From Reichenbachiella agariperforans (GTDB lineage Bacteria; Bacteroidota; Bacteroidia; Cytophagales; Cyclobacteriaceae), in contig NZ_FRAA01000001.1 of the NCBI RefSeq assembly GCF_900142205.1, positions 112,889 to 176,888 on the forward strand: 64,000 nt of DNA, read 5' to 3'. How positions within the stretch are numbered: the first letter of the stretch is position 1; each line of letters starts with the position of its first letter. The position numbers were made by a program, and so were the translations under genes. The notes under the pieces are model-generated. The model saw nothing but the letters and a program-made list of their open reading frames with translations, was not told the origin of the DNA and searched no databases. This document shows positions 7,291 through 13,257 of this stretch, piece after piece.

Positions 7291-8427
7291 CTAGTACTTC
7301 GCCATCTCAGGGTCAATCTGCTCAGCCCACGACAGGATACCTCCCTGTAGGTTGTAGAGATTACCATAGCCTTTGGCCTTGAGTGTGCGCAAGACATCCG
7401 CACTGCGATTGCCACTACGACAGTAGAGCACTACGTCCTGGTCCTTTTGGATTTGATCCAGTTGAGCCTCGATCTGGTTTTGTGGGATCAACGTGCCGCC
7501 GATATTGGCGATATCAAACTCATACGGCTCACGCACATCGATGAGTTGAAATGCTTTGTTCGTGTCTTTCCATTCCTTGAGCTGTACTGCTGTAATCTCA
7601 CGCACGGGTTCTTCTTGCTCCTCGTGTCCTGAACCACAGAAGAACTCATAGTCGATCAGTTCCGTCACGGGAGCAGTATTCGGGTTTTTCCGGATCTTCA
7701 TCGTCCGCGTCTCAAAAGACAACGTGTCGAACAAAAACAAACGCCCGCTAAGCGGCTCCCCTATTCCCGTGATCACTTTGATTACTTCATTGGCCTGCAT
7801 GGTACCAATCATCCCTGGCAAGACACCCATCACACCGCCTTCGGCACAGCTCGGCACAAGCCCCGGAGGAGGTGGTGAAGGAAAGAGGTCTCGGTAGTGT
7901 GGTCCCCGCACACCGGTTTTGTCCACATAGTTGAACACTGACAGTTGTCCATCGAAGCGAAAGATCGAAGCATAAACGTTCACTTTGTCAAGAATCACGC
8001 AAGCGTCGTTGACCAAATACCTCGTCGCAAAATTGTCCGTACCGTCTGCGATCACATCATAATCCTTGAATATCTCCAGTGCATTGTCTGAGGTCAATGC
8101 CGTATCATGTACTGTAAATTCGATGAAGGGATTGAGTTTCTCAAGCCGTGTCTTAGCAGTGGCAGCTTTGGACTGCCCTACATCCTCGACCGTAAACAAC
8201 ACCTGACGTTGTAGATTCGAATCATCCACCACGTCAAAGTCCACGATCCCGATGTGTCCTACTCCCGCAGCAGCCAGATACAACAACACTGGACTACCCA
8301 AGCCACCACTGCCCACGACGAGCACCTTAGCCTCTTTGAGTTTGCGCTGTCCCTCGATGTTGAACTCCGGGATGATCAGATGGCGACTGTATCGCTCTAG
8401 TTCCGCTTTCGAAAATGTAGTCGACAT
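7291..8427 (-). CDS. MoeZ-like sulfur-carrier adenylyltransferase with rhodanese domain
   Basis: 378 aa. Residues 1-260 are the ThiF/MoeB/E1 fold: nucleotide loop GSGGLGSPV, then FDVVDDSNLQRQ, DGTDNFATRY, and the conserved PSCAEGGVMG. Residues about 280-378 are a rhodanese domain with active-site loop CRSGNRS. Such fusions adenylate the C-terminal Gly of a sulfur-carrier protein and convert it to a thiocarboxylate with rhodanese persulfide. The segment that carries the first structural zinc CxxC in MoeB reads HYRDLF here, so that pair is missing, as in MoeZ-type relatives. It is the last gene of the cysM-JAMM-cysO-moeZ operon, 2 bases after the carrier gene, which makes the carrier its expected partner. 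Confidence 0.93.
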   Translation of the reverse strand: MSTTFSKAELERYSRHLIIPEFNIEGQRKLKEAKVLVVGSGGLGSPVLLYLAAAGVGHIGIVDFDVVDDSNLQRQVLFTVEDVGQSKAATAKTRLEKLNPFIEFTVHDTALTSDNALEIFKDYDVIADGTDNFATRYLVNDACVILDKVNVYASIFRFDGQLSVFNYVDKTGVRGPHYRDLFPSPPPPGLVPSCAEGGVMGVLPGMIGTMQANEVIKVITGIGEPLSGRLFLFDTLSFETRTMKIRKNPNTAPVTELIDYEFFCGSGHEEQEEPVREITAVQLKEWKDTNKAFQLIDVREPYEFDIANIGGTLIPQNQIEAQLDQIQKDQDVVLYCRSGNRSADVLRTLKAKGYGNLYNLQGGILSWAEQIDPEMAKY

Positions 8428-8429
8428 AT

Positions 8430-8708
8430 CTAGTTTGCTCCTCCTGCTATGGCTGGAATGATGCTGATTACCGTATCTGCCTCGATGGCCGTCTTTTCAT
8501 TGTCCAACGACTCGATATCGTCTTCTCCTTTGTAGATTCTGATGAAACGCTTGATTTGTCCCTGTGCATCAAATATTTGCTTCTTCAAATCCGGAAACTG
8601 TGTCACCAGATCCTCAATCGCAGACAGGATGTTGTCTCCTGCCACGGCGATAGTCGCCTGATTGTCTGCAAATTTCCTTAGGGGTGTCGGTATGATTATT
8701 TCTGCCAT
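8430..8708 (-). CDS. CysO-like (MoaD/ThiS fold) sulfur-carrier protein with GG-AN tail
   Basis: 92 aa from the ATG at 8708; a longer frame reading upstream overlaps the protease gene and was dropped. The beta-grasp signature is visible: an opening strand IIIPTPLRKF, VAGDNILSAIEDL, then late strands IKRFIRIYK and VISIIPAIAGG. The diglycine that would become the thiocarboxylate is not terminal; two residues, Ala-Asn, follow it before the stop. Such tails are known in QbsE-like carriers, where a JAMM protease trims them. It lies between the JAMM protease (4-base gap) and the activating enzyme (2-base gap). Its likely role is to carry sulfur for cysteine synthesis. Confidence 0.9.
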   Translation of the reverse strand: MAEIIIPTPLRKFADNQATIAVAGDNILSAIEDLVTQFPDLKKQIFDAQGQIKRFIRIYKGEDDIESLDNEKTAIEADTVISIIPAIAGGAN

Positions 8709-8712
8709 GTTG

Positions 8713-9138
8713 TTATTCGTTCGTAATGATTTCCTCCTCAAACTCGTTTTGCTCATTGAGCTGCCAAGACCGTGTGTTTTGTACCACGGTCTCCGAGACA
8801 GAGGCGATGATGTATGAAAAGAAAGGCAAAGCCTGCGCCAGATCATGCACTGAAGGCTCAGCAGGATGCTTGGGGTGTGAGTGATACACTCCCAGCAATT
8901 CCTGTTTGCTTTCAATAGCATATTTTTCGGCAGCCATGTAGTCCTTTGGGTCTACTTCAAACCTTCTTCGTTGATCCCCCACTTTGGAATTTTCCAATGG
9001 GGTGTATTCTGTCACTTTTTTGGCTTCACCAGCCGACTCTCCAAAGAAAAAGCCTACGCATTCGTTGGGAAAATCTGCCAGGGCATGCCTGTGCATAGAA
9101 GCCAATATTTCGTGATCGACTATGACTTTTTTACTCAT
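8713..9138 (-). CDS. JAMM/MPN+ metalloprotease, Mec+-like
   Basis: 141 aa, a single JAMM domain. The zinc signature is complete: Glu in FPNECVGF (about residue 27) and HSHP-KHPAEP-SVHD (HxH-x7-Sx2D). Mec+ of Mycobacterium cleaves cysteine from the C-terminus of CysO, and QbsD-type relatives trim a dipeptide from a carrier. Both jobs make sense here because the neighbouring carrier ends in GG plus two residues. The start codon overlaps the cysM-like stop by one base (TGATG), so the two genes are translationally coupled. Confidence 0.92.
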   Translation of the reverse strand: MSKKVIVDHEILASMHRHALADFPNECVGFFFGESAGEAKKVTEYTPLENSKVGDQRRRFEVDPKDYMAAEKYAIESKQELLGVYHSHPKHPAEPSVHDLAQALPFFSYIIASVSETVVQNTRSWQLNEQNEFEEEIITNE

Positions 9139-10067
9139 CAGAATAGTGATTTGATGATTTCGCTGTATTTCTCCGCATTGTCAGGGAAAAGTGTCACGAT
9201 GACTCCCTCCTCGATCTCATTGGCTAGATCGATTGCCCCTTTGAGGTTCGCTGCAGAAGATGGACTCAGTAGAATCCCCTCCTTTTTAGCCGTCTCTTTG
9301 AGCATATCATAAGCATCATAGGTATCCACGTGCTTGATTGCATCGACCAGTGAAGTATCATAAATACCCGGCACCTTGGCCGTCTCCATGTCCTTCCATC
9401 CCTCCAATCCGTGCAATGCACCATCCGGTTGCAATCCGATCGTTTGGATGCTAGGGTCGCGTTCCTTGAGGTACTTGCTGATCCCAGTAAACGAGCCCGT
9501 AGTACCGAGTCCTGTCATGAAGTGCGTGATGCTATCTCCCAACTCCTCAAATATCTCAGGTCCTGTCCCTTCGTAGTGGGCTTTCCAGTTGTTCTCGTTG
9601 TTGTATTGATTGGCGAGAAAGTACTTGTCCGGCTCGTTATTGTACATCTCGTGCGCCTTGGCCTCCGACTCATCGGACGAACCAAACTTCGATGTATAGA
9701 CGATGTTGACACCCAAGCCTTTGAGCAACTTCTTGCGTTCCCATGATGCATTCTCAGGGAGGCAAATCGTCACAGGAATCCCCAGCCGTGCACATATCGT
9801 CGCATATGCCAAGCCCGTGTTCCCACTGGAAGCATCTAGTAGCGTTTTGCCTGTACCGAGTTCACCACTCTCCAGCGCCGCTTTGATGATTTGGTAAGCG
9901 GGTCTGGTCTTGACACTCCCGCCAAACTGCATCCATTCCATTTTGGCATAGATCTTCACCTTTGGCTTAGGAGACAAATGCTGAATTTCGTACAGGGGTG
10001 TATTGCCGACATACTTGCCCAGCGTTGTGATACTTTTAAATACTTCTGATTCTTGATTGATCACCAT
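9138..10067 (-). CDS. cysM: Cysteine synthase CysM-like (PLP-dependent)
   Basis: 309 aa of fold-type II PLP enzyme. The Schiff-base Lys is in FGGSVKTRPAY (about residue 52), the substrate loop is DASSGNTGLAY, and the PLP phosphate loop is GLGTTGSFTG. These enzymes replace the side-chain leaving group of O-acetyl- or O-phosphoserine with sulfide or a thiocarboxylate. Next to a CysO-like carrier, a JAMM protease and a MoeZ-like activator, it most likely uses carrier thiocarboxylate, as mycobacterial CysM does. Which serine ester it uses cannot be read from the sequence. It is the first structural gene of the operon, 20 bases after the attenuator terminator. Confidence 0.93.
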   Translation of the reverse strand: MVINQESEVFKSITTLGKYVGNTPLYEIQHLSPKPKVKIYAKMEWMQFGGSVKTRPAYQIIKAALESGELGTGKTLLDASSGNTGLAYATICARLGIPVTICLPENASWERKKLLKGLGVNIVYTSKFGSSDESEAKAHEMYNNEPDKYFLANQYNNENNWKAHYEGTGPEIFEELGDSITHFMTGLGTTGSFTGISKYLKERDPSIQTIGLQPDGALHGLEGWKDMETAKVPGIYDTSLVDAIKHVDTYDAYDMLKETAKKEGILLSPSSAANLKGAIDLANEIEEGVIVTLFPDNAEKYSEIIKSLF

Positions 10068-10086
10068 TGTTTTAGTTTATTTCAAC

Positions 10087-10119
10087 AAAAAAGCCTTTCC
10101 TCGAAAGGGAAAGGCTTTT
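10087..10119 (-). terminator. Intrinsic terminator in the cysM leader (attenuator)
   Basis: On the minus strand a 12-bp stem AAAAGCCTTTCC / GGAAAGGCTTTT closes a 7-base loop and ends in six T. It stands between the leader peptide and cysM, 20 bases before the cysM start and after no annotated full-length gene, so it would block cysM transcription unless overcome. Confidence 0.9.
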
Positions 10120-10166
10120 AAATATTTTGATCTCTGACGAGCGTTTATTTAAATCTATACTTTCCC
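10107..10166 (-). promoter_or_regulatory. Candidate antiterminator pairing in the cysM leader
   Basis: Minus-strand GGGAAAG (10166 to 10160) is complementary to CTTTCCC (10113 to 10107), which forms most of the 5' arm and first loop base of the terminator. Pairing would break the terminator. The GGGAAAG arm begins 10 bases past the leader stop codon and 19 bases past the last Cys codon. A ribosome at the stop would cover it, while one stalled on Cys codons would leave it free. Confidence 0.6.
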
Positions 10167-10176
10167 ACAAATCACA

Positions 10177-10233
10177 TTATGAAACGCAACAACAGCAATC
10201 TGCCATCCTCATCGCTTTCTTGAATGTGTCCAT
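10177..10233 (-). CDS. Cysteine-rich leader peptide, 18 aa
   Basis: Reads MDTFKKAMRMADCCCCVS then TAA. Four consecutive Cys codons (TGC TGT TGT TGC) occupy 10197 to 10186, just before the stop. Cys is a rare residue, so four in a row in an 18-codon ORF ahead of a cysteine-synthesis operon is hard to explain except as a ribosome sensor of charged tRNA-Cys. A weak -7-like AATTTTTG (10306 to 10299, minus) could give a transcript that begins about 60 bases upstream. A longer in-frame extension to 10368 exists but is not needed. An alternative is a tiny metal-binding peptide. Confidence 0.75.
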   Translation of the reverse strand: MDTFKKAMRMADCCCCVS

Positions 10234-10436
10234 GGTACTGATTTTATTCACTTTCTTTTGTATTAAAAAGGGTTCAACGCAATGTTCCGCTATTCGATCA
10301 AAAATTGCTAGTTTTTTCGTTAGAAATTTTGGTCGAGAATCAAGAGTTAGATTCAAGAACTGATTCACTTAGCGCACAATCGTTTCGTGAGCACACGAAA
10401 CAGAGCGGTAAACTTTCTCACTTTTAATTCCCCTCT

Positions 10437-11630
10437 CTAAGCTCTCGCTAATACGCGACTAGAAATCTCATCGCCGATCGCCAGCGACGAAGTAGCTGCG
10501 GGTGATGGTGCATTGCAGACATTGACGAAGTGCTCGTCTTCGAGAATCTGAAAATCATCCAACAGCCCTCCGTTTCGATCGCAGGCTTGCGCACGGACAC
10601 CTGCCCCGCCTACTTCCAGATCAGACTCTTGGATCTCTGGGATGAGCTTTTGTAGCGCCTTGGTAAAAGCCGTCTTGGAGAACGAACGATACATCTCACC
10701 AAACCCTGTCCGCCAGTACTTGGCAGCTACTTTTTGAAAACCTGGCCATGCCAGTGTCTCTGCCAGTTCGGCTAGATTGATATCCGACTTCTTGTAGCCC
10801 TCCCTCTGAAAAGCCAAAACGGCATTGGGACCTGCCTCTACCCCTCCGTTGATCATTCGCGTAAAGTGCACACCTAGGAACGGGAAGTTCGGATCAGGCA
10901 CCGGATAAATCAAATTCTTGACCAGATGCTGACTTTCCTTCTTGAGTTGGTAGTACTCGCCCCGAAAAGGCACGATCTTTAGATCGGGCTTGAGAGGCGT
11001 CATCTTGGCTACCTTGTCCGAGTACAAGCCGGCACAGTTCACGACCAACTTGCCTTCGAAATCTCCCTTGTCTGTCACGATGGTTTGTACCTGTGGTGCA
11101 GCATTGATTTTGACTACCTTGTGATTGTAGTGTATTTCTGCGCCTGCTGCGAGTAGTTTTTCCTCTAGCTTCTTACATACAGCCGTATAATCGATGATCC
11201 CAGTCTGAGGGACGTAGATCCCTTTGACACCATTGACGTGCGGCTCGTATTCTTTGAGTTGATCCTGGTCCAACCACAGCATGTTCGTCAGGCCGTTTTG
11301 TTCGCCACGCTCGTGTAGTGTAGTCAGGTACGGCACCTCAGCCTCGTCGGTAGCCACGACAATCTTGCCACACAGATCGTACTTAATTTCTTCTTTTTGA
11401 CAAAAGTCCAAAAGCAAATGGTAGCCCTTGATACAATTGGTAGCTTTCAAGCTCCCTGGCTTGTAGTACAAGCCCGAATGGATCACACCACTGTTGTTGC
11501 CCGTCTGGTGCTTGGCTGGGCCTGACTCCTTTTCCAAAATAGCAATAGAGGTATTGGGAGCCTTTTCGAGGATCTTCCAAGCGCTAGCCAATCCTACGAT
11601 TCCTCCGCCGATGACGATGACATCTTTCAT
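10437..11630 (-). CDS. lhgO: L-2-hydroxyglutarate oxidase
   Basis: 397 aa from the ATG at 11630, chosen because it puts the dinucleotide-binding strand MKDVIVIGGGIVGLASAW at the very N-terminus; the upstream extension is not family-like. This is a DAO-superfamily flavoprotein that oxidises L-2-hydroxyglutarate to 2-oxoglutarate and passes electrons to the membrane quinone pool. Supporting motifs are HQTGNNSGVIHSGLYY (substrate/FAD loop) and, near the end, VGGAGVRAQACDR with a final GDEISSRVL. The length matches LhgO (about 400). It is monocistronic; the space before the cysM leader holds no gene. Confidence 0.93.
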   Translation of the reverse strand: MKDVIVIGGGIVGLASAWKILEKAPNTSIAILEKESGPAKHQTGNNSGVIHSGLYYKPGSLKATNCIKGYHLLLDFCQKEEIKYDLCGKIVVATDEAEVPYLTTLHERGEQNGLTNMLWLDQDQLKEYEPHVNGVKGIYVPQTGIIDYTAVCKKLEEKLLAAGAEIHYNHKVVKINAAPQVQTIVTDKGDFEGKLVVNCAGLYSDKVAKMTPLKPDLKIVPFRGEYYQLKKESQHLVKNLIYPVPDPNFPFLGVHFTRMINGGVEAGPNAVLAFQREGYKKSDINLAELAETLAWPGFQKVAAKYWRTGFGEMYRSFSKTAFTKALQKLIPEIQESDLEVGGAGVRAQACDRNGGLLDDFQILEDEHFVNVCNAPSPAATSSLAIGDEISSRVLARA

Positions 11631-11741
11631 GTGTGGTCTGATAATGTGTGATAAACTGAGGCTCGAAATTGAGCAAAGAATCAACGAAATGCAAGTATGA
11701 TGCCTCCAGAACTACTCGATCTATAAGGGCACTAAAGATTA

Positions 11742-12194
11742 CTACCCCAGAATCTGAGCTGTGTGTTCTTTGGTTTTGACTTTTCCGATGATCTCGGAGA
11801 TGACACCTTGCTCGTCGATGACGAAAGTCGTACGAAATGTCCCCATGTATTTGCGACCGTACATCTGCTTCTCGCCCCAAGTACCAAATAAATCATGAAC
11901 CACCTTGTCCGTATCTGCCAATAGATCGAAAGGCAACTCATGCTTATCGATGAATTTCTGATGAGACTTTTCGCTATCCGAGCTCACGCCTAATACTTCG
12001 TATCCTTTGGCCATAAGGTCTTGGTAGTTGTCCCGGAGGTTACACGATTGCGTGGTACATCCTGGTGTATTGTCTTTGGGATAGAAATAGAGTACTAACT
12101 TTTTGCCTGCATAGTCTGACAACTTAATCGTTTCGCCTTTTTGATTTACTCCTTCGAACGCCGGCGCAGCGTCTCCTACTTTCAATTCTGTCAT
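11742..12194 (-). CDS. bcp: Bcp/PrxQ thioredoxin-dependent thiol peroxidase
   Basis: 150 aa. The peroxidatic Cys is in NTPGCTTQSCNLRD, with the second Cys five residues later, the atypical 2-Cys arrangement of PrxQ. It removes peroxides in the cytosol with thioredoxin as reductant. LVLYFYPKDNTPG and the late GKYMGT-like strand are typical of the family. It ends the run kinase-regulator-bcp on the minus strand: the response regulator stop is only 1 base upstream, so all three are probably one transcript and Bcp output may follow the same signal. Confidence 0.95.
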   Translation of the reverse strand: MTELKVGDAAPAFEGVNQKGETIKLSDYAGKKLVLYFYPKDNTPGCTTQSCNLRDNYQDLMAKGYEVLGVSSDSEKSHQKFIDKHELPFDLLADTDKVVHDLFGTWGEKQMYGRKYMGTFRTTFVIDEQGVISEIIGKVKTKEHTAQILG

Positions 12195-12195
12195 A

Positions 12196-13257
12196 TTAGT
12201 ATCCTCTTGATATAATCACTGCTAACTCATCCGCATCTACCAGTTTGATCTTGTTGGACTGGATATCAATGAGCCCCTCAGTTTTGAAATCCGACAAAGT
12301 ACGGATCACAGACTCGGGGGACGTTCCCACAATATTAGATAAATCCTCACGGGAGATCGCAAAAGATTCAGTTTCATTGCCATACTTTTTCTTAACCGAC
12401 AGGAGTGCCTCTGCGACACGCTGACGAACAGAATTGTAGGCTAGATGAAGCATCTTTTCCTCCATCTCTAGAATGTTCTTAGAGAGGATTTTGATAAAAC
12501 TACTGGCTACTGCTCTGTCCTTGTAGATGAGCTGCAAAAAGTCGTCCTTAGGAATAAAATATGCTTCGACGGGCTCAGTAGCCATAGCTCCTTCGCTGTG
12601 ATCAGACTGGGTGATGAGGTCGTTAAATCCCAAGAACTCCTCTGCACCATATAACCCTGTGATTAATTCCTTACCATCAGAGTTGGTCTTGTAGGTTTTA
12701 ACTTTACCTGACTTGATATAGATCAGATAATTTGGATAATCCCCTTGATGATAGAGGTTCATTTTTTTCTTATACTCTCGTAGCTTTTTCTCGTGTGAGA
12801 GTGCTTTGAGGCTGCTGATTTCTTTGGCATCATGAAAGAAGTCATCTAAACCCGACACACTGGTTTCATAGTCCTTTTGCATCTGGCGGGTACGATTGAT
12901 CCGTGCCTCTACCGCATCGAGCAGCTCCACATCGTCATAGGGTTTAGTCAGATAGTCGTCCGCGCCTAGGTTCATTCCCTTGCGCATATCAGACTTCTCA
13001 GCTTTGGCTGTTAAAAAGATAAACGGAATGTGTGAGGTCTCAGGATTTCTCATCACAATGTGTAGCACACCATATCCATCTAATCCTGGCATCATGATAT
13101 CACAGATGATCAGATCAACGGTATTGTTTTCTCTGAGCATGGTGACCCCCTGTTTACCATCAGCTGCGGTGAGAACTTCATATCCTGCGAGTTCTAGAAT
13201 CTCTGCGGTGTTTTCCCGTACACTGTCATTGTCTTCGATGAGTAAAATTCTTTGCAT
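12196..13257 (-). CDS. REC - cyclic-nucleotide-binding-like - Crp HTH response regulator
   Basis: 353 aa. Residues 1-120 are a receiver domain: acidic pair ED at 8-9, phospho-acceptor Asp in ICDIMMPG (about 53), and the conserved Lys in LTKPYDD. Residues about 160-270 form a CNB beta-roll (YLIYIKSGKVK...). Residues about 290-350 form a Crp-type winged helix, with REDLSNIVGTSPESVIRTL as the recognition helix. It therefore joins phosphorelay input to Crp/Fnr-type DNA binding. No Cys cluster for an Fnr iron-sulfur centre is present. Its kinase lies 4 bases upstream. Candidate target palindromes occur upstream of uspA and ccoNO. Confidence 0.93.
   Translation of the reverse strand: MQRILLIEDNDSVRENTAEILELAGYEVLTAADGKQGVTMLRENNTVDLIICDIMMPGLDGYGVLHIVMRNPETSHIPFIFLTAKAEKSDMRKGMNLGADDYLTKPYDDVELLDAVEARINRTRQMQKDYETSVSGLDDFFHDAKEISSLKALSHEKKLREYKKKMNLYHQGDYPNYLIYIKSGKVKTYKTNSDGKELITGLYGAEEFLGFNDLITQSDHSEGAMATEPVEAYFIPKDDFLQLIYKDRAVASSFIKILSKNILEMEEKMLHLAYNSVRQRVAEALLSVKKKYGNETESFAISREDLSNIVGTSPESVIRTLSDFKTEGLIDIQSNKIKLVDADELAVIISRGY

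Follow-up and report, generated by a model that had tools for sequence, protein, structure and literature searches.

A candidate cysteine-sensing transcription attenuator in front of cysM operons of Bacteroidota

Introduction

Just upstream of a cysteine synthase gene in Reichenbachiella agariperforans (phylum Bacteroidota), a short open reading frame (ORF) with four consecutive Cys codons is followed by a hairpin with a run of T. The locus raises the question of whether translation of these codons decides if the operon behind them is transcribed. We studied it within a stretch of 64,000 nt (contig NZ_FRAA01000001.1, positions 112,889 to 176,888 of the forward strand), hereafter the window, and in related loci of other genomes. 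On the strength of sequence comparison and RNA modelling, we consider the leader to be a ribosome-mediated transcription attenuator of the trp/his type for cysteine, and we put the probability of this reading at about 0.86. In searches that had a wider aim, we met no account of cysteine sensing in Bacteroidota, and a small RNA switch found again and again in front of the CysM-CysO operon would offer a directly testable answer.

Results

Parts of the leader and the operon behind it

The leader lies between a gene for L-2-hydroxyglutarate oxidase (10437-11684) and the cysM-JAMM-cysO-moeZ operon (10067-7291), with all of its parts on the minus strand (Table 1). An earlier sequence-only reading of this DNA had described an ORF with four Cys codons, a 12-bp terminator with six T just before cysM, and a 7-bp complement able to trap the 5' arm of the terminator, and each of these elements is present where it had been placed. 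The terminator reads AAAAGCCTTTCC-CTTTCGA-GGAAAGGCTTTT, and GGGAAAG (10166-10160) is the exact complement of CTTTCCC (10113-10107). The distances given for the trapping segment, 10 nt from the leader stop and 19 nt from the Cys run, are also correct. Set alone against shuffles, the antiterminator of the window is marginal (-8.2 kcal/mol, z -1.4, p 0.07).

Table 1. Leader elements and downstream genes, in positions of the window
Feature	Position	Strand	Remarks
Leader ORF, first-ATG version, MDTFKKAMRMADCCCCVS, 18 codons	10177..10233	-	ATG 10233-10231, TAA 10179-10177
Likely true leader ORF, MRMADCCCCVS (or MADCCCCVS from ATG 10206)	10177..10212	-	ATG-GCA kept 7/7
Sensor, four consecutive Cys codons TGC TGT TGT TGC	10186..10197	-	
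Strand 1, CCATGGACACATT	10223..10235	-	Pairs with first part of strand 2 (10178-10165), enclosing the ORF
Strand 2, 5' part, AATGTGATTTGTGG	10165..10178	-	Partner of strand 1
Strand 2, antiterminator part, GGGAAAG	10160..10166	-	
Extra antiterminator pairs, TTTAAATA	10146..10153 with 10124-10117	-	Minimum-energy fold, ribosome on Cys codons
Strand 3, CTTTCCC	10107..10113	-	Antiterminator target in terminator 5' arm
Intrinsic terminator	10087..10119	-	12-bp hairpin 10119-10089 and six T 10092-10087
cysM-type cysteine synthase, putative first target of the control	9138..10067	-	PF00291 above cut-off; TIGR01138/TIGR01136 below theirs
JAMM/Prok-JAB peptidase (Mec-like)	8713..9138	-	PF14464
CysO-like ubiquitin-fold sulfur carrier, ends ...GGAN	8430..8708	-	PF02597; SAMP1-like below cut-off
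MoeZ-like ThiF-rhodanese	7291..8427	-	PF00899 and PF00581

The 18-codon ORF of the earlier reading is borne out in its Cys codons and its stop; its start at the first ATG is doubtful. In an alignment of the genus, which has seven sequences from few lineages and thin covariation, that ATG (10233) is ATA in five of the seven leaders, and all seven retain an in-frame ATG-GCA a short way ahead of the Cys codons. For this reason, translation of the leader probably begins at 10212 or 10206 rather than at 10233.

The same seven sequences bear on the 13-pair helix between strands 1 and 2 (1:2), for which 89% of the cells are paired compared with 34-52% for slid versions. Two of the 13 pairs are broken in five of the seven species, and one pair is changed on both sides, as it also is in 438 of 500 shuffles. 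Pair counts for the 2:3 and 3:4 helices were not taken from this alignment, where three species seem to have their terminator columns out of register by roughly one base.

Beyond the window, genes for JAMM, CysO and MoeZ all lie downstream of cysM in 71 of the 75 loci whose downstream sequence extends to 1500 nt or more (the exceptions are L118, L120, L126 and L129). In the window, the cysM and JAMM frames overlap by one base (9138), which suggests translational coupling. An exact GG C-terminus occurs in only 6 of the 73 CysO-like relatives found (among L057-L136), and the carrier of the window ends in GGAN. Because so few carriers end exactly in GG, the tail may need prior trimming by the JAMM peptidase.

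A riboswitch or T-box-like RNA that senses cysteine or tRNA directly, with the ORF secondary, could draw on the structure of the leader, whose overall fold has a z of -2.6, a value too weak to lean on. No Rfam family reached its gathering score in 16 leader loci, and we regard direct sensing of this kind as extremely improbable. A search of window positions 9000-12500 gave six Rfam matches, none at gathering score. Leader families of Rfam such as T-box and Bacteroid-trp were rejected as candidates, as no covariance model matched at gathering score in these searches.

Recurrence of the leader upstream of cysM

Four TGY codons in a row are not rare in themselves; the genome of R. agariperforans has 28 exact matches, compared with 12 for a reversed-pattern control. 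Among 26 such places examined, seven of them more closely, only two looked leader-like by eye and had a terminator, namely the window leader and one other. The argument against chance is recurrence across CysM loci, not the pattern of the window alone.

At 14 of the 17 nearest CysM orthologs (at least 52% identity), a poly-Cys ORF and a terminator are visible by eye; no poly-Cys ORF was found at the nearest loci L016, L023 and L025. For all later scans, an ORF of 5-70 codons at most 450 nt upstream was counted as Cys-rich if it had CCC or at least four Cys in six residues. The best 80 of 577 CysM relatives, a selection biased to near ones, were chosen blind to their upstream sequence, and 69 of them are labelled Bacteroidota and have at least 300 nt upstream (L087 and L133 fall short). 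A Cys-rich ORF occurs in 56 of these 69 loci, compared with 3 on the antisense strand and 0.7 in shuffles; for ORFs starting with ATG the counts are 53, 1 and 0.2. Nine further loci are not labelled Bacteroidota, and among these L107 has a leader and eight do not.

Other samples gave similar counts. An even draw of the phylum found this CysM in 23 of 394 genomes (at least 80% complete, E<=1e-110), and 17 of the 22 loci besides the window's own have a Cys-rich ORF (antisense 3), scored for the ORF alone. A family scan, which left out L163 (too short) and L164 (CysK-type) and partly shares its loci with the nearest-ortholog set, found one in 26 of the 28 CysM-type loci that had sequence upstream. 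None of 13 CysK-type loci has a CCC ORF upstream, and much of that upstream sequence is coding. When runs of at least three identical residues are counted in the ATG ORFs of the 69 loci, Cys leads with 53, followed by Leu with 19 and every other residue with at most 4; some of the Leu runs may be the TGY tract read in a different frame. Chance origin of the Cys ORF is ruled out by this recurrence, and the expectation of the sequence-only reading that orthologous operons should share the Cys runs and the competing stems was upheld, with Cys-rich ORFs at 14/17, 56/69 and 17/22 loci.

One could still suppose that the hairpin simply terminates the oxidase gene, which lies upstream on the same strand, and that the ORF is there by accident. 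Across the 69 loci the terminator goes with the Cys ORF instead, being present at 46 of 56 loci with a leader and at 2 of the 13 without (p 1e-5), and the two exceptions, L081 and L098, show weaker CC ORFs. Genome G007 (L016, L141) has an apparent oxidase gene end before cysM, and neither leader nor terminator was found there (L016 by eye). Since an accidental ORF is also excluded by the count of 56/69 against 3 on the antisense strand, we judge this explanation very unlikely.

Pairing of the leader with its terminator

The leader set comprises 91 distinct leaders from 77 loci. A scan placed an intrinsic terminator after the Cys run in 83 of the 91, and three more, at L102 (second unit), L105 and L125, were seen by eye after being missed by the scan, which overlooks short or broken T runs. 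Across the 83 leaders, strand 2 pairs with the terminator 5' arm at a mean of -12.1 kcal/mol, compared with -7.9 for shuffled sequence, and 48 of them reach p<=0.05. Among 54 cluster representatives, own pairings (mean -12.11) beat those with permuted partners (-8.94, sd 0.32), and none of 5000 permutations was as good; strand 2 and the terminator thus evolve together.

Strand 2 starts a median of 14 nt past the last Cys codon (IQR 11.5-19), compared with 21 (9-35) when shuffled. The position at which the stop codon ends ranges from +3 to +57, and many relatives have a strand 2 that overlaps the 3' end of the leader ORF. PMC4833913 gives about 12 nt as the downstream cover of a ribosome. Across the leaders as a set, strand 2 would sit just past a ribosome stalled on the Cys codons. 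The trp/his-type geometry that had been proposed for the window is supported for the set, both by the median of 14 nt and by a match to the own terminator beyond permutations.

These comparisons also bear on the idea that the Cys-rich peptide is itself the product, as a metal-binding peptide or the precursor of a modified one. The longest Cys runs, of 3-9 residues, could bind metal. The peptides are dissimilar between groups outside the Cys run (by eye), however, and the permutation test links the sequence that follows the Cys codons to the terminator arm. The window ORF has no Pfam match, and with NCBIfam none of seven leader peptides came near a cut-off, the best being one chance match (E 0.74, 9 bits compared with a cut-off of 100). 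A functional peptide is accordingly as improbable, in our estimation, as direct sensing by the RNA.

Predicted effect of ribosome position

Sequence and modelling agree that the pairings 1:2, 2:3 (antiterminator) and 3:4 (terminator) are mutually exclusive. We modelled transcripts cut before the terminator 3' arm and assumed a downstream footprint of 12 nt. On average, the share of the terminator arm that is blocked is 0.71 with a ribosome on the first Cys codon, 0.16 with one at the stop codon and 0.53 without a ribosome; with shuffled spacers, the first two of these values were 0.45 and 0.30. The arm is blocked at 0.5 or above in 81 of 83 leaders on Cys, 6 of 83 at the stop and 47 of 83 without a ribosome. 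In the window, the 7-bp antiterminator has a probability of 0.98-0.99 when the ribosome sits on the Cys codons and of 0.03 when it sits at the stop; with no ribosome, the antiterminator has 0.28 and the 1:2 helix 0.89. The finished RNA of the window gives the terminator at 0.92-0.97 in every modelled state. Because the finished RNA always favours the terminator, the choice between terminator and antiterminator would have to be kinetic.

These results are consistent with the following course of events. When Cys-tRNA is ample, the ribosome would reach the stop codon and cover strand 2, and after its release the 1:2 helix would, in the genus, aid the masking of strand 2. With strand 2 masked, the terminator would form and transcription would end before cysM. 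Under a shortage of Cys-tRNA, the ribosome would halt on the Cys codons and strand 2 would emerge past its edge; free strand 2 could then capture the terminator 5' arm ahead of synthesis of the 3' arm, with readthrough into cysM-JAMM-cysO-moeZ. In the subclade with the early stop (L138, L139, L142, L143), a looser measure gives a poor off state, with 0.41-0.75 of the arm blocked at the stop codon; termination may depend on the 1:2 helix there.

Distribution, tandem leaders and a putative second target

Two leaders stand in series at 14 of the 77 loci (L057, L058, L060, L067, L068, L071, L077, L078, L102, L103, L108, L120, L125 and L149), and a scanned terminator follows each of the two in 12 of the 14. 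On a CysM tree, leaders occur on 66 of the 82 rows of the main Bacteroidota clade, with Balneolales and L107 counted in. Over the 91 rows of the tree there are 15 changes in leader presence, compared with 21.4 when shuffled, and none of 500 shuffles was as low. This distribution would fit an old leader that has disappeared many times, or one that was lost and later gained again. Bearers of the leader include Paraflavitalea, Pseudoflavitalea and Flavitalea (loci L073, L089 and L096). Two loci carry labels at odds with their CysM. The contig of L107 is labelled Rhodopirellula (Planctomycetota), and its CysM stands beside Flavobacteriales rows with a similar leader; it is probably misbinned. L136 is labelled Bacteroidetes and its CysM groups with an Acidobacteria row; its Cys-rich match may be chance.

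Four Balneolales leaders (L064, L074, L101 and L109) stop at or at most two codons past the Cys run, and no terminator was found by scan at these loci. By eye, an ACCGG/CCGGT stem lies downstream. These leaders possibly have a different output. They lend some weight to a translational or Rho-dependent account of the poly-Cys ORF, by which a stalled ribosome would expose the start site of cysM and the hairpin would have no part in the control. So do the mycobacterial poly-Cys leaders, for which translation attenuation (PMC13236596) or a possibly Rho-dependent effect (PMC1262725) has been described. Against this account, the scan found an intrinsic terminator in 83 of the 91 leaders, not counting the three seen by eye, and strand 2 matches that terminator specifically. 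We therefore think it unlikely and prefer transcription attenuation.

The genome of R. agariperforans holds a second poly-Cys leader outside the window (L165 1-4315; ...MMGCCQPCCCCAVTSTSGDIF, start uncertain), likewise with a terminator. The genes after it, named from reading their translations, are sulfite/nitrite reductase-like, uroporphyrinogen methyltransferase-like and siroheme-synthase-like. Matches to the sulfite reductase occur in 63 of 98 genomes, and 14 of the best 30 loci drawn from these have a Cys-rich ORF (antisense 0/30). Of the 14, seven come from the 8 genomes of the genus and seven from the 22 other loci, among which L195 lacks a terminator. The fit is poor in two cases: strand 2 of L176 reaches only -3.3 kcal/mol, and the arm of L183 is blocked 0.36 on Cys and 0.73 without a ribosome. 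Together, the cysM and sulfite reductase leaders would form a small cysteine regulon. G007 (L016, L170) is the sole genome of the eight in the genus without a cysM leader, and its sulfite reductase leader is absent too, which on comparison of these loci would be a coordinated loss.

Discussion

Our findings raise the broader proposal of an old, phylum-wide cysteine attenuation that controls the CysO-dependent operon and, in some lineages, sulfite reduction, with repeated loss and with tandem leaders in a fair share of species. We hold the chances of this wider picture to be about even. If it is true, two attenuators in series should multiply stringency and sharpen the response, and the series arrangement would be a natural experiment in the stacking of attenuators. 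Cysteine would also join the amino acids sensed by terminator-type attenuation.

We found no description of a poly-Cys attenuator in Bacteroidota in the open literature; Lyubetsky 2014 and Lopatovskaya 2010 lie outside that coverage and may hold such predictions. The former, on PF00480/PF14340 proteins and sulfur metabolism, reportedly predicts leader genes with tracts of Cys codons and Rho-dependent or classic attenuation. The Bacteroid-trp RNA motif (RF01692) is presumably a trp leader. It shares with the present leader that it is a cis-regulatory leader in Bacteroidetes and differs in being named for trp, not cys (PMC2864571). For Flavobacterium psychrophilum, a passage of PMC9723704 offers clues for leader-peptide attenuation of amino-acid operons and does not name cysteine there.

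With the trp/his-type attenuation of Proteobacteria and Actinobacteria, the leader shares a leader peptide rich in the end product, the competing helices 2:3 and 3:4, with a candidate 1:2 helix, and an intrinsic terminator before the first gene. It differs in that the amino acid is cysteine, the phylum is Bacteroidota, strand 2 often overlaps the end of the ORF in relatives, and two units can stand in series (14/77). Short polycysteine ORFs of mycobacteria are reportedly the subject of Canestrari 2020, and they are the closest relatives in print. What they share with the leader is the run of Cys codons before cysteine operons (PMC1262725, PMC13236596). The mycobacterial leaders are described as translation attenuation in PMC13236596 and as having no conserved terminator hairpins in PMC1262725, whereas here an intrinsic terminator comes with a matching antiterminator. 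On this comparison, one codon sensor would serve both Actinobacteria and Bacteroidota, coupled to a different output in each.
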